From: Parasporobacterium sp.
Lineage (GTDB): Bacteria; Bacillota; Clostridia; Lachnospirales; Lachnospiraceae
Reading direction: 5' to 3'
DNA: 63,307 nucleotides
Assembly (NCBI GenBank): GCA_017510065.1
Contig: JAFWOB010000195.1
Coordinates: 1-63,307, forward strand
Position numbers and translations under genes: made by a program. The notes under the pieces were generated by a model. It ran no database searches. It was not told where the DNA came from and worked only from the letters and a program-made list of their open reading frames with translations. Shown in pieces: positions 36,482 through 48,281 of this stretch (its first letter is position 1; each line of letters opens with the position of its first letter).

Positions 36482-39400
36482 TTATCTGTTCCTGATCATA
36501 CGGCGGATTCCCTCAGCTGTTACTGTAAGAGATACTGCCAGGAGAATGATCCACAGGATTGTGTGATTGGTATCACCGGTCTTCGGGACATTCTGGGATG
36601 CCGGTGCGGCAGGTTTTGCCGCAGTGGTTGTTTCTTCTTCGGCATTCGCTACAGTAAACTTCCATTCTTCCGTTTCGCCATCGACAAAACAGATCACGAT
36701 CTTATGCTCGCCGTTTTTCAATGTCTTCAGATATGACGGCCGTAAAGTAACAATCGTGCTTCCTTCCTTGGCATCATAGTCTTTTCCTTCAACGATCGGA
36801 TTTCCGTCAACCTTCACGCCTTTGAATTTTGCAAATGCGCCATCCGAAGTGATCGTGAGTCCATCCGATTCTCCATTCCATGCTGTTTCGCTGGATGACT
36901 TAATGATCTCATATCCGTTCGTTTCTTCGGTCGGCTCCTCTTTGGTCGGCTCCTCTTCGGTCGGCTTTTCTTCCGTCGGTTCCTCTTCCGTCGGCTTTTC
37001 TTCCGTCGGTTCCTCTTCCGTCGGCTTTTCTTCCGTTGGTTTCTCTTCCGCCTGCTTTACCTCAAATTCCGTTTCTTCGGTTTCTCCGTTGGCAAACCGG
37101 ATCACTGCCGTATGGGTGCCGTTGGATAATGTCTTCAGGTATTCCGGTTTTAATGTTACGATGGTGCTTCCCTTTGCAGTCTCATAATTTTCTGCGTCGA
37201 TTTCTTCTCCATCGATCAGAACCGCGTCAAATACATTCAAAGAACCGTTTGCCCTCAGGGAAAGACCTGTTTGTGTATCTCCCTCCCATTTGTCGTCTGC
37301 TTCCAGGAGCTGGTAATCCGCAGTCTGAGAGAAGGATCCTTTCAGGCTTTCTTCCTCTGTAGCGGCACCTGTTTTGTCCATCGTGCTCATGGTATGCGTA
37401 ATCTCCGCATCCGGTTTCGAAAGATCGGTCCATTCTACTTCCGTATACCGTCTCTTTCCTCCGATATTGCTGGTAATGTATCCGGCGTGTCTGTAGGTAA
37501 AGAGGATTTCCTGTTCCGAAGTGGTCTTGTCGTCAAAGCTGACAGTACTTGTCAGTTTTTCACCCGGATTGACTACCATCTCGCTTTCCCCTTTGGAATG
37601 GTCATGGCCGAAGAAGAACATGATATTCATTCCGGTCGCCGCATAGCGGTTCAGAAGCGCTACCATCTGGTCGGACTGGTCTACATTATAATCGCCTTCA
37701 CCGCCCCAGTTATCCAGCTGGTGCAGTCCTGCATGGGCAGAGATCACGATCAGCTGACCTGCATAATCATTCCTGAGGTTTTCCAGGAAAGTTTCCAGTT
37801 CAGTGATAACATTCGCATAGGAAAAACCTGAATCTACCTTGATGTCTTCATAATTAATACCGTATACGATCAGATTCTCCAGGTTGGCGCTGCTGCCGCC
37901 GTTTTCCTTGGCGATCTCACTGTCAAAGATCACCCCTCCGAGCTCATAATCCTGAGTGGATCCGAGATTGGCTTCAATATTGGCATCTTTGGCTGCAGTG
38001 CTGTTTTCATGATTACCTGCGACAAATACTGTGTCGATGCCGGCGGACTGTGCCAGCAGACGTGTAATGTAAGTATTTTTCGTGGTCTGATAATTATCGG
38101 AGGTAGCGTCTCCACCCAAATAACGGCCGTTTGCCCAGTCACCGGTACAGATGATCAGTGCGGGGATCAGTCCGTCTCCGTCTGCCGCCATAATATTATT
38201 GATCGCGTATCCAATGTGGGAGAACGTCTCATGCACATCGGAGAATGTCAGGAAGGAGTTATTGTTGACACCCTTGCAAACGATAAAGTTTACGGTCAGT
38301 GACGTGTTGGAATAAGTCTTTTCGGATGTTGTGTTATCGTCTGCCGTTTCCGTAACCGTGCAGGATACGACACAGTATACCGGATACACGCCGAATTCTC
38401 TTCCTAACAGAGTGTCTGCCCGCAGGGTATTGGTCACTGCTGTTCCGGCAGTTGCCGCAACGGTATTTACAGGCTGTGCGGTTCCTTCCACATACCAGGT
38501 GAAATCAATACTGGTAGCCGTGGAATCTTCCGGAAGGGCTGCGGTGATCGAATAGACCGGTGCCGCATAGCCGCTTCCTTCGATCATGTATTTCGTAGGA
38601 ACAGGCTCTTCCGTAATCTGCGGTCCGTTTGCCATGGTGGCAATGATCTCAGATGAACTCTTGCCTCCGCCTCCGCCTCCGCTGCTGGCGGTATCGCCTC
38701 CGAACAAAACTGAAACGCTGTCATAGGAAGCCGTAACACTTCCGTCTGCTCCGAGATAATAGTATGTTCCGTTATCATCATAGTACAGATGGCCGGCTGC
38801 ATCGAGATGCCAGTGATTGAAACTGGTCGCTTCCCCGGGATTGTCCTTATCATCCGCTGTAAGAACTCCGTTTACAACATAGATGTAGTTCCAGTTTCCT
38901 GGAGGATCCTGCATCCGTAAAGTCATGCCGTCTCCGACAACTTTTACTTCAATACTGGTTGACTTTCCTGTTGTTGCGGTACGGGATCCGTCTTCCCCGG
39001 AAACAGTGGAAGTACTGGTTCCGAATGATCCCCTGTCCAGATTCAGCGTTGTACCGGTTTCCGGATTAACGATCTCAATATAAGCCGTGGTAATTCCCTG
39101 TGTTCCGTCGATTTCACTATAGGTGGAAGAACTGCTGCTTCCGCCGCCGGTCTCACCGCCTGTTTCACCGCCGGTCTCGCCACCTGTTTCACCGCCGGTT
39201 TCGCCGCCGCCTGAAGCTGCTGCGAGCTGGTAACCAACTGCTCCGGATTCGTCATTTTTACTTAAGGCAAAAGCGCCTCCTTCCGAACCCGCACCGACAT
39301 AGTAAGTGTCTTTACCGGCTGTATAATAGAACATTGCTGTAGCCGAATCATAATTCCAGTTGCCGGCTTCTGACGCCTGCGCGATCAGTGTAGGGCTGGA

Positions 39401-40369
39401 AGATCCCTTGGGATAATACAGATAGTATCCGTTATTGGAAAGTTCTGTACCTTTACTACCTGTTGCAGCGGTCCACTTCATAGCGTCCGTTGCAGCATCC
39501 GTCGAAGCGATCAGAGTTCCTACAATAGAACCATCGTTATTTGTTACAGCAAGAAAACCGCTTCCTGTTTCATATCCGATCACATAAACTCCGGCAGCGA
39601 TCGGATTGGAATCAGCCGCCATTAATGCATCGGTATCTTCTTCAAGCTCTTCCTCTTCATCGTCAGCTGCAGTAGTTTCTTCTTCGTTCTCTTCCTCTGT
39701 GAATTCCTCTTCCAGATCTTCCCCTGCTTCCTCATCCGGCTCTGAGACCTCTTCTTCAGCAGGTGTTTCTTCTTCCGGTTCTTCTGCCGCGGGCTCTTCT
39801 ACTGCTGGCTCTTCGGTCACGGGTTCTTCGAGCATCGGTTCATCTGTCGGATCTTCTACTATCTCTTCATCACCGTCCTGCAGGATTTCCTGTGGTTCAG
39901 TTTCCGCTTCCGGATCAAGGATTTCTCCCTCTGAACCGGTCACCGGATCTTCAGTAAGGGATTCCGAGCCTTCTTCCGGATCTGAAGGTTCCTCTGCGGA
40001 GTCCGCAGGATCATTTTCTTCACCTTCTCCGGCAGCTTCCGGCTCCTGGGCGGGATCCGAAGGTACCACCACAGGTTCTTGTTCTCCTGTATCGGTTGTT
40101 CCTTCGGGAAGAAGTTCTTCTCCATCCTCCTCGTCCCCCGGTGCTAAAGATTCCTGTTCCTCTTCAGAAAGGTTTTCTTCCGCATCCGCAGCGGTACTCT
40201 CCGGAAGGAGTTCTTCCGGTGCTGCCTCATTTGCACCAGACTTTGCCTCTTCCAACAATAAAACAGCCTGCTGCTCTTGAGTATTTTCATCCGCAAGTAA
40301 CACCAGACTATTAAAGGTCAATGACAATGCCGTTAGTATAACGACAGCCAAAGCAAATCGCCTTTTCAT
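36482..40369 (-). CDS. giant acidic wall-anchored metallophosphoesterase
   Basis: The product is 1295 aa. In order it has: a signal peptide (1-26); an extremely Glu/Asp/Pro-rich region (about 30-250); a domain with repeated YY motifs (about 255-385); a GGET repeat linker (about 388-412); and two beta-rich regions. A calcineurin-like phosphoesterase follows (about 700-960) with DVHE, GDWANGR, GNHE, SAHAGLH and GHDHS metal-site motifs. Next come two similar CBM_X2/Ig-like repeats separated by a PTEEKPTEEE repeat (about 1100-1150). The sorting signal is VPKTG (about 1259), then a hydrophobic span and an Arg tail. It is predicted to be sortase-linked to the wall and to hydrolyse a phosphoester or nucleotide outside the cell. 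It is transcribed ahead of, and coupled to, the small exported chaperone-like gene. Confidence 0.8.
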   Translation of the reverse strand: MKRRFALAVVILTALSLTFNSLVLLADENTQEQQAVLLLEEAKSGANEAAPEELLPESTAADAEENLSEEEQESLAPGDEEDGEELLPEGTTDTGEQEPVVVPSDPAQEPEAAGEGEENDPADSAEEPSDPEEGSESLTEDPVTGSEGEILDPEAETEPQEILQDGDEEIVEDPTDEPMLEEPVTEEPAVEEPAAEEPEEETPAEEEVSEPDEEAGEDLEEEFTEEENEEETTAADDEEEELEEDTDALMAADSNPIAAGVYVIGYETGSGFLAVTNNDGSIVGTLIASTDAATDAMKWTAATGSKGTELSNNGYYLYYPKGSSSPTLIAQASEAGNWNYDSATAMFYYTAGKDTYYVGAGSEGGAFALSKNDESGAVGYQLAAASGGGETGGETGGETGGETGGETGGGSSSSSTYSEIDGTQGITTAYIEIVNPETGTTLNLDRGSFGTSTSTVSGEDGSRTATTGKSTSIEVKVVGDGMTLRMQDPPGNWNYIYVVNGVLTADDKDNPGEATSFNHWHLDAAGHLYYDDNGTYYYLGADGSVTASYDSVSVLFGGDTASSGGGGGGKSSSEIIATMANGPQITEEPVPTKYMIEGSGYAAPVYSITAALPEDSTATSIDFTWYVEGTAQPVNTVAATAGTAVTNTLRADTLLGREFGVYPVYCVVSCTVTETADDNTTSEKTYSNTSLTVNFIVCKGVNNNSFLTFSDVHETFSHIGYAINNIMAADGDGLIPALIICTGDWANGRYLGGDATSDNYQTTKNTYITRLLAQSAGIDTVFVAGNHENSTAAKDANIEANLGSTQDYELGGVIFDSEIAKENGGSSANLENLIVYGINYEDIKVDSGFSYANVITELETFLENLRNDYAGQLIVISAHAGLHQLDNWGGEGDYNVDQSDQMVALLNRYAATGMNIMFFFGHDHSKGESEMVVNPGEKLTSTVSFDDKTTSEQEILFTYRHAGYITSNIGGKRRYTEVEWTDLSKPDAEITHTMSTMDKTGAATEEESLKGSFSQTADYQLLEADDKWEGDTQTGLSLRANGSLNVFDAVLIDGEEIDAENYETAKGSTIVTLKPEYLKTLSNGTHTAVIRFANGETEETEFEVKQAEEKPTEEKPTEEEPTEEKPTEEEPTEEKPTEEEPTKEEPTEETNGYEIIKSSSETAWNGESDGLTITSDGAFAKFKGVKVDGNPIVEGKDYDAKEGSTIVTLRPSYLKTLKNGEHKIVICFVDGETEEWKFTVANAEEETTTAAKPAAPASQNVPKTGDTNHTILWIILLAVSLTVTAEGIRRMIRNR

Positions 40370-40565: not shown

Positions 40566-41966
40566 TTATGCTTTTTCAAATACAGTCTTCATGCATTTAT
40601 AGGTCATATAGCAGTCAAACTTGGCAACGGTCTCATAAGGCGCATGCATACTGAGGACCGGCACACCCGCATCGATGGTTTCGATGTTCCGGTTTGCCAT
40701 ATCCAGGGCTACCGTTCCGCCGCCGCCGTTGTCATTTTTACCCATCTGGGTCATCTGCCATACGACGCCATTATCATTCATCAGCTTACGAAGCTTGCCG
40801 ACTGTTTCCGCAGAGGCATCGGACGCTCCGGATTTTCCGCCGTGTCCGGTATATTTACAGAAGGCCACGCCATGGTTGATCTTGGAATCATTGCGGATCT
40901 CGAAAGCTTCCGCGTAATTCGGATCATAAGCTGCCGTCACATCCGCGCTGACACAGAAGGAATGAGCGAAGCAGTCGCGGATATCCACGCCCTGGGCTTT
41001 ACAGAGATCTCCGATAAACCATTCAAATGCTTCACTGATCATGCCGGTTACGCCCATGGAACCGATCTCTTCCTTATCCGCGAAGATGCAGACACCGGTC
41101 TTCTTAACTTTCTTAGCATCAAACAGCCCGGCCATCTCCGCATAAGCACAGACCCGGTCATCATGGCCATAGGCAGCAATAAGGCTTCTGTCGAAGCCGA
41201 TGTCTTTTGCCTTTCCCGCCGGAACGACTTCCAGTTCGGCAGAGATAAAGTCCTCTTCTTCCATGCCGTACTTCTCGTTCAGAAGTTTCATGATCCCCAT
41301 CTTGACCCGTTCGGATTCCTCATCCCCTCCGACGGGACGGGATCCCACCAGCACATTCAGGATCTCAGAAGGAACAGCCTGATCCAACGGCTTCTGATCC
41401 GTCGCTTTTTTCAGATGCGGAAGCAGATCTTCAATAATGAACTGGGGATCTCCTTCATCAGCACCGATATTGACCTTCACTTCATCCCCGCTGCGAAGGA
41501 TGACCACGCCGTGAAGTTCCAGCGGTCTTGCTACCCACTGATATTTACGGATCCCACCGTAATGATGGGTCTTCAGATATGCCATTTCTGCTTCTTCATA
41601 AAGTGGGTTTGGTTTCAGGTCCAGTCTCGGGGCATCCGTATGAGCAGCCGTCAGATTAATGCCCTGGTCCAGTTTATCTGTTCCGATCACAGCAAACATG
41701 ATGGATTTGCCGCGGTTGTTATAATAGACCTTGTCACCGGCTTTGATTTCCTGCCCAAACTTGTAGGCTTTGAATCCGTTTTTCTCCGCCAGTTCGATGC
41801 AGTAATCCACGCACAGCCGCTCCGTTTTGCAGTGGTCCAGAAAATCCTTATACCCCTCGCAGTATTTGTTCATTTTCTTTTCTTCCGCAGCGGTCAGTTT
41901 GTCATATCCGTTTCCCTGCTTATAAAACAGTTTGTCCTTGATCTCATTTTTCTTTTTCTCTGCCAT
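40566..41966 (-). CDS. M18-family aminopeptidase
   Basis: This 466-aa protein has the M18 (aspartyl aminopeptidase type) zinc-site motifs: AAHTDAPRLDLK near 125, AYGHDDRVCA near 270, ADKEEIGSMG near 295 and the C-terminal SMHAPYE. The lid-type segment YGGIRKYQW is typical of the family. It removes N-terminal amino acids, often acidic ones, from peptides in the cytosol. It is monocistronic, with a clean AAAGGAG site. It lies next to the oppABCDF operon, whose imported peptides it could digest. Its upstream region is occupied by the seven-unit repeat array. Confidence 0.9.
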   Translation of the reverse strand: MAEKKKNEIKDKLFYKQGNGYDKLTAAEEKKMNKYCEGYKDFLDHCKTERLCVDYCIELAEKNGFKAYKFGQEIKAGDKVYYNNRGKSIMFAVIGTDKLDQGINLTAAHTDAPRLDLKPNPLYEEAEMAYLKTHHYGGIRKYQWVARPLELHGVVILRSGDEVKVNIGADEGDPQFIIEDLLPHLKKATDQKPLDQAVPSEILNVLVGSRPVGGDEESERVKMGIMKLLNEKYGMEEEDFISAELEVVPAGKAKDIGFDRSLIAAYGHDDRVCAYAEMAGLFDAKKVKKTGVCIFADKEEIGSMGVTGMISEAFEWFIGDLCKAQGVDIRDCFAHSFCVSADVTAAYDPNYAEAFEIRNDSKINHGVAFCKYTGHGGKSGASDASAETVGKLRKLMNDNGVVWQMTQMGKNDNGGGGTVALDMANRNIETIDAGVPVLSMHAPYETVAKFDCYMTYKCMKTVFEKA

Positions 41967-42034
41967 GATCGTCTCCTTTATTCTGCTCTTTCTTTCATAT
42001 GCGTTCTGCTCTCATCTACCTGGTTTTTTGTATT

Positions 42035-42317
42035 GATACGAATATGTGCCTTTTTTATATTTCGTATCATGATCTGATACGAATATAATCTTTTTTGTTT
42101 TTTCGTATCATATTATGCTACGAAATCAATGTTTTTCCTCTTTTCGTAGCAAATGCCTGATACGAAATCAAGATTTTTCCTCTCTTCGTAGCAAATGCCT
42201 GATACGAAATCAAGATTTTTCCTCTCTTCGTAGCAAATGCCTGATACGAAATCAAGATTTTTCTTCCCTTCGTAGCAACGCATGATACGAAATCAAAATT
42301 TTTCCTCTCTTCGTAGC
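42035..42317. repeat. seven-unit palindromic tandem array, GATACGAA/TTCGTATC (array 2)
   Basis: GATACGAA (or GCTACGAA) occurs at 42035, 42076, 42117, 42159, 42201, 42243 and 42284. Its inverse TTCGTATC/TTCGTAGC occurs exactly 26 nt after each one (42061 to 42310). The period is 41, 41, 42, 42, 42, 41. Units 3-7 are nearly identical in the spacer as well (AAATCAAGATTTTTCCTCT), while units 1-2 share only the arms. Seven potential hairpins therefore stand in a row upstream of the M18 gene. No gene is seen in 41967-42479. Confidence 0.9.
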
Positions 42318-42425
42318 ATTGTCATGTCACTCAACAGGTTCCTTGAGAACAGGCAGACCGCATGCATTTTATCACGGCGGAATTGTAATGGCAATCCCAC
42401 TGCCGCACTTACGTTTCCGCAAAAA

Positions 42426-42447
42426 ACAGCTGCCCGAAGGCAGCTGT
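42426..42447 (-). terminator. terminator of the opp operon
   Basis: A 9-bp stem, ACAGCTGCC with GGCAGCTGT, and a CGAA loop are followed on the minus strand by TTTTTTGC. Confidence 0.85.
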
Positions 42448-42479: not shown

Positions 42480-44189
42480 TTATTTTGCTCTACCAAACTG
42501 GCAGTCATTGTTGCCGGAAGCAGTGATCCACATTTCAAGCATGTTGATCGGGTCGTTGAAGTCTGCGATCCAGCCTTCACGAGCGAAGTCGAAGTTACCG
42601 TTCTTACGTTCCTCAAGGAATACGTTCCAGTCCTGAGTCTGGATGGACATATCGATACCAACAGCGGAGAAATCCTGCTGCATGGACTCAGCGATAGCAA
42701 CGTGACCGGAGGTATTGTTGGTCAGGTATTCGATGGTGATCGGAGTATCAGCGGAAAGCATTCCGTCATCACCAAACTGGAAGCCTGCGAACTCAAGAAG
42801 TTCTCTTGCTCTTGCAACAGTGCCTTCATAATCGTTGTTGATAGCGTACGGATCATAGTAGCCCTGCTCGATTGCTTCGGTCTTGAAGATGCCGCCATTG
42901 CCGTCTGCCATACCTAACGGAAGGAATGCGTTAGCAGCAACCTGACCTGTCTGGCCGATGTTCTCACAGATGTAGTCACGGTCGATCAGCAGTGAGAAAG
43001 CTTCTCTCATAGCTGCTGCCTGCTCAACTGTCTTGTCAGCGAACAGTTCGCTGTTGGCGTTGAATGCGCAGTAGTAGGTTCCTAATTCGTCAACAATGTG
43101 GAATTCCGGATTTTCGGTCTCTAACAGAGTAGCGATCTCATCGGTCGGAACTGTGTCAGCGAAATCAAGAGAGCCGTCATTGTATGCTGCATAGATAGCG
43201 GTATCATCTGCAGAGAGCATGAACTCTAACTTCTCAACGGTGACCTGATCAGCGTTGAACCAGTTCGGGTTCTTCTCATAAGTCATGGAGGTGTCATGGT
43301 TCCATCCTGTGCAGACATAAGCACCATTGGACGGGAAACCGGCTTCCTGGCACCATGCGCCCGGAGCTTCAGCTGTTGCATGCTCTTCTACCCATGCTTT
43401 CTGTACCGGATAGAATGTCGGGAAGGACATAAGGTCTTCCATGTATGCACACGGAGCTGTCAGAACGAACTGCAGTGTGGTGTCATCAAGGGCCTTTACA
43501 TTAAGGTCTGTTGTTTCACCTTCTACATATCCGTCAAAGCCAGAGAACATGTAAGCATAGTCAGCTGCAGTTGCAGGATCGGTAGCTCTCTTCCAGGAGT
43601 ATTCGAAATCAGCTGCAGTCAGAGGAGTGCCATCGCTCCACATAAGGCCTTCCTTCAGGGTAACGGTGTAGGTCAGGCCGTCTTCAGACAGTTCATAACC
43701 TTCTGCACATGCAGGAACGGTATTGCCGTCTGCATCATAGGTGTACAGACCGGAGAATGAGTTGGCAGCAAGGCAGGCACCGTCAACAGAGCTGTTCAGA
43801 GCAGGATCAAGATAATCCGGTTCAGAAGACAGGTTGATCTTAAGTGTGGTCTCGCCATTTGCCATGGTGGTGTACATAAAGAACTTTGTTGCGAAAGCAT
43901 TTGCATAGATGCCGTCAACATAGTCTTTCTGCATGTAAATGTCATTGTAGTAATAGATCGGGATAACGCAGTAGGTAGCCATAAGGATATCTTCAGCCTG
44001 ATGCATCATCTCAGTACGTTTCGCCATATCAGTCTCAGCTTTGATCTGAGCAACCAGTTCATCATACTGTGCCCACTCGTTGATCGGGTCGATCAGTGCG
44101 TCGCTGACCATAGCTTCTGCTGCGAATACAGAGGTAGCCATTCCAAGGACCATCATTGCAGCAACTACTAAAGCAATTACTTTTTTCAT
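42480..44189 (-). CDS. oppA: peptide ABC transporter substrate-binding protein OppA, apparently circularly permuted
   Basis: This 569-aa family 5 (OppA/DppA) binding protein has a signal peptide (1-23, VFA cleavage) and no lipobox. Residues about 38-108 (QYDELVAQIKAETD, AEDILM, VIPIYYYNDIYM, DGIYANAF) are what normally forms the C-terminus of OppA. The normal N-terminal sequence (INLSSEPDYLDPALNSS, then GLMWSDGTPLTAADFEYSW) begins only at about 117. The chain ends at GNNDCQFGRAK, just where the missing C-terminal part should begin. The whole fold is therefore present in permuted order, with no frameshift. It is the last gene of oppBCDFA, with its own strong ribosome binding site and a terminator after it. 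It captures extracellular oligopeptides. Confidence 0.85.
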   Translation of the reverse strand: MKKVIALVVAAMMVLGMATSVFAAEAMVSDALIDPINEWAQYDELVAQIKAETDMAKRTEMMHQAEDILMATYCVIPIYYYNDIYMQKDYVDGIYANAFATKFFMYTTMANGETTLKINLSSEPDYLDPALNSSVDGACLAANSFSGLYTYDADGNTVPACAEGYELSEDGLTYTVTLKEGLMWSDGTPLTAADFEYSWKRATDPATAADYAYMFSGFDGYVEGETTDLNVKALDDTTLQFVLTAPCAYMEDLMSFPTFYPVQKAWVEEHATAEAPGAWCQEAGFPSNGAYVCTGWNHDTSMTYEKNPNWFNADQVTVEKLEFMLSADDTAIYAAYNDGSLDFADTVPTDEIATLLETENPEFHIVDELGTYYCAFNANSELFADKTVEQAAAMREAFSLLIDRDYICENIGQTGQVAANAFLPLGMADGNGGIFKTEAIEQGYYDPYAINNDYEGTVARARELLEFAGFQFGDDGMLSADTPITIEYLTNNTSGHVAIAESMQQDFSAVGIDMSIQTQDWNVFLEERKNGNFDFAREGWIADFNDPINMLEMWITASGNNDCQFGRAK

Positions 44190-44247: not shown

Positions 44248-45210
44248 CTATTTATTCCAGCATGCTGAAAAATGCTCTCCGCCTCTGTCAGTCAGAGGAG
44301 GCATCTCCTGGGCACACTTTTCGGTCGCATAGCGGCACCTGGTACGGAACGGACAGCCGGAAGGCATATGCAATGGGCTGGGAACGTCTCCTTCCAGGAT
44401 GATCCTGTGCCTTTCCCTGGCGATCTTCGGATCCGGGATCGGTACCGCGGACATCAGGGATTCCGTGTACGGGTGCAGCGGATGATCGGATACTTCATCC
44501 GCATCGGCAACCTCTACCATCTTACCCAGATACATGACCGCGATCTTTTTCGAAATGTGACGCACAACCAGAAGGTCATGGGCGATGAACAGATATGCCA
44601 CGCCGAGCTTGTCCTGAAGCTCTTCAAACATATTGATCACCTGTGCCTGAATGGAAACATCCAGTGCAGAGACCGGCTCGTCACAGACAATGAACTCCGG
44701 ATTGACAGCCAGTGCCCTGGCGATTCCGATACGCTGTCTCTGCCCCCCGGAGAACTCATGGGCATATCTTCTGGCATGTTCTGCATTGAGGCCAACCAGT
44801 TCCATCAGATGCAGGATCTTTTCACGACGGTCTTTACGGTTGTCATAGAGCTTATGTACATCCAGAGGTTCACCGATGATATCCTCTACCGTCATACGGG
44901 GATCCAGGGAAGAATACGGATCCTGGAACACCATCTGCATCTTCTTGCGCATATGCACGATGTTCTTTGCGGTTACTTCTTCTCCGTCAAATCTCACGGT
45001 TCCGGCTGTGGGTGTATAAAGACGCAGGATTGTTCGTCCTACGGTTGTTTTGCCGCATCCGGACTCTCCTACCAGCCCCAGTGTTTCACCGGCGTTAATG
45101 GAGAATGAAACATCATCTACTGCTTTCAGGGTAAGTTTGTGGAAACCGTCTGTGACTTTAAAGTATTCTTTCAGATGTTCCACTTCCACCAATGGTCTGT
45201 TTTTATCCAT
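44248..45210 (-). CDS. oppF: oligopeptide ABC transporter ATP-binding protein OppF
   Basis: This 320-aa ATPase has Walker [10 protein letters not shown], signature FSGGQRQR and the C-terminal oligopeptide-transporter extension with a cysteine motif ([14 protein letters not shown]) seen in Opp/Dpp ATPases, which may hold an iron-sulfur cluster. It pairs with OppD. Its ATG overlaps the oppD stop by one base. Confidence 0.95.
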
Positions 45211-46274
45211 CAGTCATTACCCCCTTTCCCCGTCTCTTCCGGCAGACGCAGACATTTCGGCAGCTCTCCTTTGAATTCCTCCGGGAGCTTTCCTGCTTCC
45301 GTCATCTCCTTAATATTCATCCAGCAGGCAGCCAGATGATCCTGGTTGATCCGGATCTCCTGAGGGATCTCTTCCAGACAGATCTTCATACACTCATCAC
45401 ACCGGGCGGAAAAGGCGCAGCCCTTTGGCATGTTCAGCATGTTGATGGGAGAGCCCGCAATGGGGATCAGCTTTTTCTTCATATTATTGATGCTGGGGAT
45501 GGAACGAAGAAGACCTTTTGTATATTCATGCTTCGGATTATAAAAGATCTCATCCGCAGTCCCGCGCTCGCAGATACGTCCGCCATACATGACGATGATG
45601 GTATCGCACATATCCGCGATCACGCCCAAGTCATGGGTCACGATGATGATCGCCATACCCAGCTTCTTCTGCAGATCCAGCATCAGTTCCAGGATCTGGG
45701 CCTGGATCGTAACGTCCAGTGCCGTTGTCGGCTCATCAGCGATCAGGATATCCGGTTCACAGGCAAGCGCCATGGCGATCATGACACGCTGCCGCATACC
45801 GCCGGAATGTTCAAACGGATACTGTTTCAGACGTTTGCTCGGGTCATTGATGCCGACCAGCTCCAGAAGTTCTTTTGCTCTCGCCTTGACTTCATCACCT
45901 TTTTTGCCTGTATGCAGCCGGATCGCTTCTTCGATCTGGTTGCCGATGGTGAAGACCGGGTTCAGGGAAGTCATCGGGTCCTGGAAAATAATAGAGCAGC
46001 ATTTTCCGCGGAACTCTGACATCTGTTTTTCAGACCACTTTGTAATATCTTCTCCTTTGAACAGGATCTCACCGCTTTTGATATAGCCGTTGTTGGCCAG
46101 GATCTGCATGATGGAATACGCAGATACGCTCTTTCCGGATCCGGATTCGCCGACGATACCGAGCACCTCTCCTCTGTCTACATTGAACGAGATGCCGTTT
46201 ACTGCCTGGACTTCACCGGAGTCTGTATGAAATGACGTATGCAGATCCTTTACACTTAATAATACTTCACTCAT
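45210..46274 (-). CDS. oppD: oligopeptide ABC transporter ATP-binding protein OppD
   Basis: This 354-aa ATPase has Walker [10 protein letters not shown], signature HSGGMRQR and the C-terminal segment [15 protein letters not shown] typical of OppD. It sits 4 nt after oppC. Confidence 0.95.
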
Positions 46275-46278
46275 ATCG

Positions 46279-47355
46279 TCACCTCTTCAGCTTCGGGTCA
46301 AAGGCATCACGAAGGCCATCACCCAGAAGATTTAAACTTAACACGATCAGACAGATGATAATCGCCGGGAATACCAGTTTATACGGATAACTCTGCAGAC
46401 CTTCCCTGGCTGCGTTGGCCAGAGAGCCCAAAGAGGGCATCGGCGCCTGTACACCAAGACCTACGAAACTCAGATAGCTTTCTGTAAAGATAGCGGAAGG
46501 AATCTGGAGAGCTGTGGAAATGATGATAACAGACAGGCAGTTCGGAAGGATGTGCTTGCGGATGATGCGTCCTTTCTTGGCACCGATGGAACGGGCTGCC
46601 AGGATATATTCATTTTCCTTAATGGAAAGGATCTCCGCACGGATCAGTCTTGCCATTCCGACCCAGTATAAACAGCCAAACACAATAAACAAAGAGATCA
46701 TATTTGCTCCCAGATTGGCCAGCAAAGAGCCGCTCTGGAAAACCAGAACCGTATTGAGGACCACGGACAGCAATATGATGACCAGCATATCCGGCAATGA
46801 GTATATGATGTCTACGATCCTCATCATGATCATATCCGTTCGTCCGCCGGTATAACCTGCAATACTGCCGTAGATCATTCCGATGATCAGAACGATGATA
46901 CTGGCAAAGAAGCCGACTACCAGGGAAACTCGTGTCCCGTAGACGCACCGGATGAAATAATCGCGGCACTGCTCATCCGTTCCGAAGATATGGGGGAATC
47001 TGGTGCCTCCCTTATCGATAAATGCCTGTTCATTCTTGCTGTACGTAAATGGCGCCAGATTCTTGGCAGTCTTGTCACGCTTGCCTTCCACGGACATGAT
47101 CTCAGCATATCCGTAAGGAACGATAGCCGGCGCCACGAGGATCACACAGATCACAAACGCAAGCACAATGATACTTGCTACCGCCAGTTTGTTTTTGAAG
47201 AGCCTTCTCATACCATCCCGGAAAAAGGTGGTACTTTCGCTCATGACGTCCTGTTGTCTCTTCTCTTCTTCGGTTGCTTTCCCGAATTTCTGCAGATTAA
47301 GCTGCAGGCTGAAAGGAGACTTCTTGGGCATTCCGTTTTCGTCATACTGCAACAT
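46279..47355 (-). CDS. oppC: oligopeptide ABC transporter permease OppC
   Basis: This 358-aa protein has a long cytosolic N-terminus (about 55 residues) before the first membrane helix, an extracytoplasmic loop (about 85-140), then five helices with the EAA motif around ILAARSIGAKKGRIIRKHIL. It forms the channel with OppB. Confidence 0.94.
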   Translation of the reverse strand: MLQYDENGMPKKSPFSLQLNLQKFGKATEEEKRQQDVMSESTTFFRDGMRRLFKNKLAVASIIVLAFVICVILVAPAIVPYGYAEIMSVEGKRDKTAKNLAPFTYSKNEQAFIDKGGTRFPHIFGTDEQCRDYFIRCVYGTRVSLVVGFFASIIVLIIGMIYGSIAGYTGGRTDMIMMRIVDIIYSLPDMLVIILLSVVLNTVLVFQSGSLLANLGANMISLFIVFGCLYWVGMARLIRAEILSIKENEYILAARSIGAKKGRIIRKHILPNCLSVIIISTALQIPSAIFTESYLSFVGLGVQAPMPSLGSLANAAREGLQSYPYKLVFPAIIICLIVLSLNLLGDGLRDAFDPKLKR

Positions 47356-47369
47356 ATCGGGTCTCCTTT

Positions 47370-48281
47370 CTATTCATATTTGATACGCGGATCTACAACT
47401 TTATACAGAAGGTCGCAGATCAGGTTCGCGATAACCATCAAAACGGCGAGGAAAATAGTAGTCGCCATGATCATGGTGTAGTCACGGTTGTTGATTGCGC
47501 TGACAAACTTGCTGCCGATACCGCCGACGGTAAATACGGTCTCTACTACCATAGATCCGGTGATAATATATGCGATCTGCGGTCCGGCATAAGTAATGAC
47601 AGGAAGCAGGGAATTCCGGAGGGCATGCTTAAAGATCACCTTCCACTTCGCCACACCTTTGGCTTTCGCCGTACGGATATAATCCTGGGACAGCGCATCC
47701 AGCATGCTGGTCTTGGCCAGACGGGTGGTATATGCCATCGGGTAAGCACAAAGGGCAATGACCGGCAGCACATAATTTGTGCTGTTTGCGCTCCAGACCG
47801 GCACCCATCCCAGTTTGATCGAGAATATCAGCAGCAGGAGGGTTGCCAGGATAAAACTGGGCACAGCCGTAAACAGCGTCGATAGGAAGATAATGATCCT
47901 GTCCGGTAGTTTATTTCGCATCAAGGCTGCTATACTGCCGAAAACAGTACCCAGGAACAGAGCGATCGCGACTGCGATCAGACCGATCTTACACGAGATC
48001 GGGAACGACTCCCCTATGATATCTTTGATCTCACGTCCGTTTTTCAGGCTGACGCCGAAATCTCCCTGCAAAAGCCTTTTCATGTACAGTCCGAACTGGA
48101 CCATGATCGGTTTATCCAGATTATACCTCTCGTTCAGAGCCTGGATCGTTGCTTCCGAAAGCGCTTTTTCTCTGTTGAACGGTCCTCCGGGCACTGCATT
48201 CATCAGGAAGAACGTGATGATACAAATCAGCAGTACCGTTACGATCGCGAGGATGATACGCTTGATGACATATTTTAACAC
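47370..48281 (-). CDS. oppB: oligopeptide ABC transporter permease OppB
   Basis: This 303-aa permease has six helices and the EAA motif DYIRTAKAKGVAKWKVIFKHALRN-type loop near 205-228. It begins with GTG at 48281, with AAAGGGG about 8 nt upstream. It is the first gene of the operon, downstream of the promoter at 48362-48390. Confidence 0.93.
   Translation of the reverse strand: MLKYVIKRIILAIVTVLLICIITFFLMNAVPGGPFNREKALSEATIQALNERYNLDKPIMVQFGLYMKRLLQGDFGVSLKNGREIKDIIGESFPISCKIGLIAVAIALFLGTVFGSIAALMRNKLPDRIIIFLSTLFTAVPSFILATLLLLIFSIKLGWVPVWSANSTNYVLPVIALCAYPMAYTTRLAKTSMLDALSQDYIRTAKAKGVAKWKVIFKHALRNSLLPVITYAGPQIAYIITGSMVVETVFTVGGIGSKFVSAINNRDYTMIMATTIFLAVLMVIANLICDLLYKVVDPRIKYE

Follow-up and report, generated by a model that had tools for sequence, protein, structure and literature searches.

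A natural circular permutation of the peptide-binding protein OppA in Parasporobacterium and repeated changes of chain order among its relatives

Introduction

Natural circular permutations have mostly been seen between distant proteins and have mostly been regarded as single old events. In substrate-binding-protein folds, the accessible part of the CPSARST study describes natural permutation for glycine-betaine-binding and molybdate-binding proteins and for CysB (PMC2395249). A standard model is permutation by duplication, as in the saposin/swaposin case, for which the available part of PMC3320104 proposes a tandem duplication followed by the acquisition of a new start and a new stop.

The protein described here resembles OppA and DppE (family 5, SBP_bac_5, cluster C) in its family by sequence, its OppA-like predicted fold, its oppBCDF partners and the residues of the pocket for the peptide N-terminus. 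It differs from them in being cyclically shifted, with the last ~73 residues placed first, and in having ends that by position appear to lie in lobe 2 rather than in domain I. It shares with the CPSARST cases natural circular permutation in a substrate-binding-protein fold; however, those cases, so far as the accessible part of that study (PMC2395249) goes, are structure-based and less than 24% identical, whereas here the two orders are 54-55% identical, occupy one orthologous operon slot, belong to family 5 and appear to have arisen repeatedly. The route that we propose is the same as that given for saposin/swaposin in the available part of PMC3320104, with the differences that no intermediate is seen here and that one loop appears to have been used repeatedly and possibly in reverse. 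Permutation of binding proteins is already known, but among the matches listed for open-licence PMC full text we found no report on permuted family 5 binding proteins, and this case is apparently new to that literature: the accessible part of PMC2861598 has no permutation term, that of PMC12667903 has none of the terms sought, and that of PMC2588589 has the permutation content sought only as a reference entry.

Results

Chain order of the protein

The window analysed is the whole 63,307-nucleotide stretch of contig JAFWOB010000195.1 of the gut bacterium Parasporobacterium sp., and the gene of interest (Table 1) is a continuous open frame of 569 codons with a single stop. In a phmmer comparison with PDB chains, residues 110-561 of the query match residues 18-444 of Bacillus subtilis DppE (8ay0), and query residues 41-96 match 8ay0 residues 452-507; the stretches are likewise swapped against B. 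subtilis OppA (8are), and the same pattern is seen with the periplasmic OppA 9rd1, where the second stretch is weak (i-Evalue 0.15). BLASTP against P0002, a normal-order protein of the same family, aligns the core (query 116-567 with 46-494, 55% identity, E 3e-175) and the moved segment (query 38-108 with 502-572, 54% identity, E 2e-24) in swapped order, and segments of this similarity in that arrangement exclude chance. By tblastn, each part has one copy in the window, the next best match to the moved segment having an E-value of 2.8.

Both segments are thus present once, swapped and in one frame, and the usual linear order of OppA is not followed in either the phmmer or the BLASTP comparison. 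These results bear out the first-pass annotation, which had described a C-terminal OppA segment following the signal peptide, then the mature N-terminus, and a chain that stops where the C-terminal segment should begin (on which phmmer, BLASTP and tblastn agree), with all parts present once in a clean frame and the whole read as a natural circular permutation; the match to ordinary OppA is indeed non-colinear, and the second downstream C-terminal segment that would have contradicted this reading was not found in the window by tblastn. Judged by its sequence matches, the protein is a natural circular permutant in which the C-terminal part of OppA now leads. The permuted form is easily overlooked because the PF00496 (SBP_bac_5) match (E 1.4e-79, 268 bits against a cut-off of 32.4) covers nearly the full profile length and spans only the middle of the protein (residues 157-561), which hides this change of order, hereafter type 1.

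Table 1. Features of the oppA gene, its parts and its neighbours in the window, listed in the direction of the operon
Feature	Position	Strand	Remarks
oppB-like permease	47370..48281	-	
oppC-like permease	46279..47355	-	
oppD-like ATPase	45210..46274	-	
oppF-like ATPase	44248..45210	-	
oppA, circularly permuted (SBP_bac_5)	42480..44189	-	569 aa plus stop
Signal peptide, residues 1-24	44118..44189	-	AFA/AE site resembling that of signal peptidase I, without lipobox (both by eye)
Short linker, residues 25-37	44079..44117	-	at the loop place of normal-order relatives (QFGK-loop-W-YD)
Moved segment, residues 38-110	43860..44078	-	corresponds to the last ~73 residues of ordinary OppA; includes IYYYNDIYM and DGIYANAF
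Core, residues 111-567	42489..43859	-	usual mature N-terminus to the lobe-2 loop; contains W540 and D543
Stem-loop just past oppA	42426..42447		scan lists + strand only; T run on - strand by eye
M18 aminopeptidase	40566..41966	-	downstream of the A gene also in G007, G008, G009 and G011 of the genus

In the nearest normal-order relatives, the site of the cut is occupied by a loop, for example QFGK-DPSNTAAPDW-TKYDEL. Permuted chains have their C-terminus at QFGR, at QFGK or a few positions further on, and after signal peptide and linker they open with ...APDW-xxYDEL or a similar sequence; the window protein has its new ends between NNDCQFGR and W-x-x-YDEL. A stretch of 13-16 residues, from a KFFMY-like motif to SEP, connects the old ends, and its length depends on the clade (main-clade proteins, by eye). 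An APDW loop is already present in the normal-order outlier L257. Several normal-order proteins outside the main clade (L214, L205, L247 and L249-L252) carry a loop of ~20-35 residues where the permuted ends lie.

Predicted fold and peptide pocket

AlphaFold2 predicts a single confident fold (pLDDT 89, pTM 0.85), with block means of pLDDT of 89-95 across residues 31-110. The two-lobe OppA fold is accordingly predicted for the window protein: residues 106-569 of the model superpose on residues 1-443 of the 517 of Salmonella OppA, a comparison that covers those residues only, with the placement of the moved segment outside it. The alignment from which the model was built contained permuted proteins exclusively.

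Residues W540 and D543 are invariant in 44 sequences. In AliD, W498 and D501 hold the N-terminus of the peptide according to the available part of PMC11192437, and from the matching W-x-x-D pattern W540 and D543 would be the corresponding pair. The N- and C-termini of oligopeptide-binding proteins are close in space (PMC10924461, part of the text), and by position from published structures the old chain ends would adjoin each other in domain I of lobe 1. With the lobe limits given in the accessible parts of PMC11192437 and PMC10924461, both the type 1 cut and the type 2 cut described below appear, again by position, to lie in lobe 2.

Operon context

The permuted oppA is the last gene of an oppB-oppC-oppD-oppF-oppA operon, that is, it is encoded together with an importer of the OppBCDF type, and the gene for the M18 aminopeptidase comes next; the stem-loop just past oppA is likely the operon terminator. 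Upstream oppF and oppD genes are found in 74 of 80 relatives (the best 80 of 105). We consider it highly probable that the gene product functions as the peptide-binding subunit of an OppABCDF-type system and has a naturally permuted chain; as such it would bind peptides and serve their transport.

Several other features of these loci were observed. The region that separates oppA from the gene for the M18 aminopeptidase holds, at positions 42034-42319, an array of ~41-42-base repeats with TACGAAATCAAGATTTTTCCTCTCTTCGTAGCAAATGCCTGA units, some of which include TGATACGA/TCGTATCA parts. Positions 36482-40369 of the window encode a protein of 1295 aa that has long acidic stretches and matches to metallophosphoesterase and CBM_X2. 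In G198, the permuted gene (L159) has oppB and oppC downstream and is without oppF upstream in the stretch examined, so that the operon order seems changed. In G008, the permuted L016 stands behind a B-C-D-F set that shares only 34-48% identity with that of the window and resembles the type 2 transporter (L213, contig C84), and the normal-order copy L024 of the same genome is located with a type 1 transporter set on a different contig. The oppC open frames have ~600 codons in G009 and G007 (L206, 6492-8270, and L212, 1221-3050) versus ~350 elsewhere, and in G148 a single open frame (L226, 1176-3410) contains both a binding protein and an oppD-like part.

Distribution and rival readings of the gene

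Normal and permuted forms both exist among the relatives, as the survey suggested in the first-pass annotation was meant to reveal. The permuted order is shared by 79 of 80 relatives (the best 80 of 105, from a search seeded with the permuted protein and therefore biased toward this form); the exception, L115, lies on a contig that lacks that end. Permuted and normal orthologues, whose core identity reaches 69%, occupy a common operon slot. Within the genus, the permuted form is present in 7 of 14 genomes and a normal-order relative in 6 of 14, G008 having both. Among 397 sampled genomes of the family to which the window belongs, 85 match P0002 at 1e-90, and 27 of these carry the permuted form (all 27 ORFs read). 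In the class-wide sample (391 genomes), 34 match P0001 at 1e-90; 4 of the 34 were not read as ORFs, and the 30 that were comprise 3 permuted and 27 normal proteins. Permuted relatives include that of Treponema bryantii XBD1002 (a strain record), that of a Sphaerochaeta metagenome-assembled genome and those of many rumen and gut Clostridia. Over the matched stretches, identity between the T. bryantii and window proteins is 85% for OppC, 76% for OppD and 79% for OppF. This spread suggests that the operon passed from one phylum to another. The permuted oppA of the one-contig genome G283 (L219, 716-2548) has one in-frame stop after codon 404 of its open stretch.

A chimeric contig that wrongly joins two pieces of oppA through an assembly or binning error would mimic the observed order, and the window does come from a fragmented draft genome of 242 contigs, with most relatives and most loci studied being metagenome-assembled. 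However, the order recurs in the 79 of 80 loci noted above, which come from many projects and include the strain record of T. bryantii XBD1002 and a contig of 1.6 Mb, and it is also seen in the one-contig genome G198. This explanation is refuted by the independent assemblies with the same order, and its probability is practically nil.

The gene could also be a decaying, non-functional rearranged copy next to an intact oppA; the G283 copy is broken by its in-frame stop, and L101 seems to shift frame near its end. By contrast, the window gene is under purifying selection: its dN/dS (NG86) is 0.049, 0.078 and 0.098 against relatives at 99, 89 and 82% identity, respectively, that is, 0.05-0.10 overall, and 0.083 against T. 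bryantii, and the moved part alone has values of 0.02-0.08 in the three computable pairs. Furthermore, the 12 matches in the window genome include no close normal-order orthologue, the next best being a normal-order binding protein 31% identical to the query. On the strength of the low dN/dS, the lack of a close normal orthologue and the invariance of W540 and D543, the pseudogene reading is rejected as very improbable.

Lipobox and membrane tether

Most permuted relatives have a lipobox; by eye, none is present in the window protein or in about a dozen of the other permuted forms. A raw pattern-based count finds the lipobox absent in 31 of 102 permuted proteins (in one more, no signal peptide was found) and in 1 of 32 normal ones, and it overstates the loss since the pattern missed boxes of the LCAC type. 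Loss of the lipoprotein-processing genes is unsupported as the cause of the missing lipobox: a search of the 14 genomes of the genus recovered lgt in all of them and lspA in 8, and lspA, which was not found in G000, is present in G004 and G010, whose proteins also lack the lipobox.

Where a lipobox exists, the permutation would place the membrane tether on lobe 2 instead of lobe 1, which might be adaptive by altering the docking of the binding protein on the permeases. Two distinct cuts that by position both fall in lobe 2 (with the limits from the available parts of PMC11192437 and PMC10924461) and the retention of the signal peptide and linker at the gene start fit this idea, but several permuted lineages, including that of the window, have no lipobox, so that tether relocation cannot be the general reason, and we regard an adaptive tether shift as unlikely.

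A second permutation in the genus

A second peptide-binding protein shows a permutation, with the cut at a different site, in 5 of the 14 genomes of the genus (G007, G008, G009, G011 and G012; L029-L032 and L036). In this type 2 permutant, residues 40-380 of 6npo correspond to query residues 215-567 and 6npo residues 392-541 to query residues 55-204, and in all five proteins Pfam profile positions 288-367 come first, followed by about 3-285. A normal-order form that is 67-75% identical is encoded in G000, G002, G004, G005 and G010 (L002 and L025-L028). The slot is the first in an A-B-C-D-F operon, being filled by the normal form in G000, G005 and G010 and by the permuted one in G007, G009 and G011. 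The five permuted proteins form one clade (100/100) nested among the normal ones, which indicates that the change went from normal to permuted. By eye, the signal peptide and linker of the permutant resemble those of the normal L028. In the family sample, 23 genomes match the type 2 protein; its ORF could be classified in 21 of them, in each case as normal-order.

Repeated changes of order on trees

Trees were built with the segments rearranged to canonical order. The 52-row tree drew on 121 rows with both segments, and the 44-, 51- and 59-row trees on 134 distinct segment pairs (102 permuted) plus later loci, with thinning by identity cut-offs. The tree sets exclude L034 and cores shorter than 400 aa. 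The distant normal-order proteins were reduced to 9 of 19 in the 44-row tree, L219, L221 and L222 do not appear in the 51- and 59-row trees, and the latter is also without L225 and L018. With rows that are a selection enriched for permuted forms, the 52-row tree has four order changes, all forced by well-supported branches, the 44-row tree five (four forced), the 51-row tree six (four forced) and the 59-row tree, with a wider outgroup, six (five forced). The fifth forced change in the 59-row tree is unsure, as it may rest on L217 and L257, the placement of which is itself unsure because these are long branches that meet. Across 200 bootstrap trees of the 59 rows, the 5-95% range is 5-7 changes, and none has only one.

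In the 59-row tree, the normal-order L128 and L148 cluster with the permuted L116, L122, L125, L157 and L159 (100/100), and the permuted L124 is nested among seven normal-order proteins (100/99). A single clade for the main permuted set was rejected both when 25 main permuted rows were constrained to it (a cost of 153 log units, p 3.7e-55) and in an earlier 27-row test (104 log units, p 0.0008); joining the permuted L014-L016 group to the main clade was not rejected (p 0.30). In the second test of the later AU round, L014, L016 and L217 were omitted from the permuted set after the tree had been seen. The OppF tree of the same operons (42 rows, with L117 dropped as too short) contains mixed clades of like composition and has six changes, of which four are forced. 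Recombination inside oppA was considered as a source of the mixed clades; when the core was split in two, mixed clades A and B were obtained from either half (SH-aLRT 97-99). With the C half, the permuted members of clade A form no clade of their own, and the short moved segment alone recovers B (75) and not A.

A reversible model of order change (AIC 43.9) fits better than a gains-only model (AIC 51.2) and places a permuted protein at the ancestor of 41 rows (P 1.00), which would imply a return to normal order in some lineages. The ancestor of the main clade would then have been permuted, with reversion in some lineages and perhaps a renewed permutation in L124; tandem duplication of a permuted gene would restore the normal order. 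Against this stand the simplicity of the model, the choice of rows in favour of permuted sequences, and the finding of neither a scar nor an intermediate. Given the row sampling, we hold reversal to be evenly balanced between true and false. It is also conceivable, with somewhat less confidence, that many lineages independently acquired a cut in a single tolerant loop and that none regained the normal order: the APDW loop of the basal normal-order L257 suggests that the site may predate the cuts, and joint lengths vary between clades (by eye), but such a history requires seven gains on the best tree and has the poorer AIC.

The composite proposal that the order in this slot switched at least four or five times, returns included, and that a second binding protein was permuted independently at another loop, has in our judgement an equal chance of being right or wrong.

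Discussion

The permuted protein would be an ordinary peptide-catching subunit of the usual fold with relocated ends, in which the old C- and N-terminal parts are joined via a short link and the OppA-like fold is kept. Its origin may lie in a tandem duplication, after which the copies fused in frame and the outer portions were lost, and tandem duplication is plausibly the likeliest route. Tandem normal-order copies are present in G101 and G333; half-way duplicated forms were not found among ORFs of at least 150 aa in loci L001-L204 and L226-L230. The recurrence could reflect a tolerance of these loops for chain ends, and simple tolerance of this kind may be enough to explain it.

Permuted and normal orthologues in one operon slot offer a natural series in which to follow how permutations arise and whether they revert, and also allow one to ask what shifted chain ends and a shifted membrane tether do to the binding protein of an ABC importer. 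The type 2 case adds a recent and clearly directed change within one genus, between proteins that are still 67-75% identical. If the reading given here is true, natural permutation in these proteins would be a repeated path rather than a rare accident, made possible by tolerant lobe-2 loops and genes that can be duplicated in tandem.
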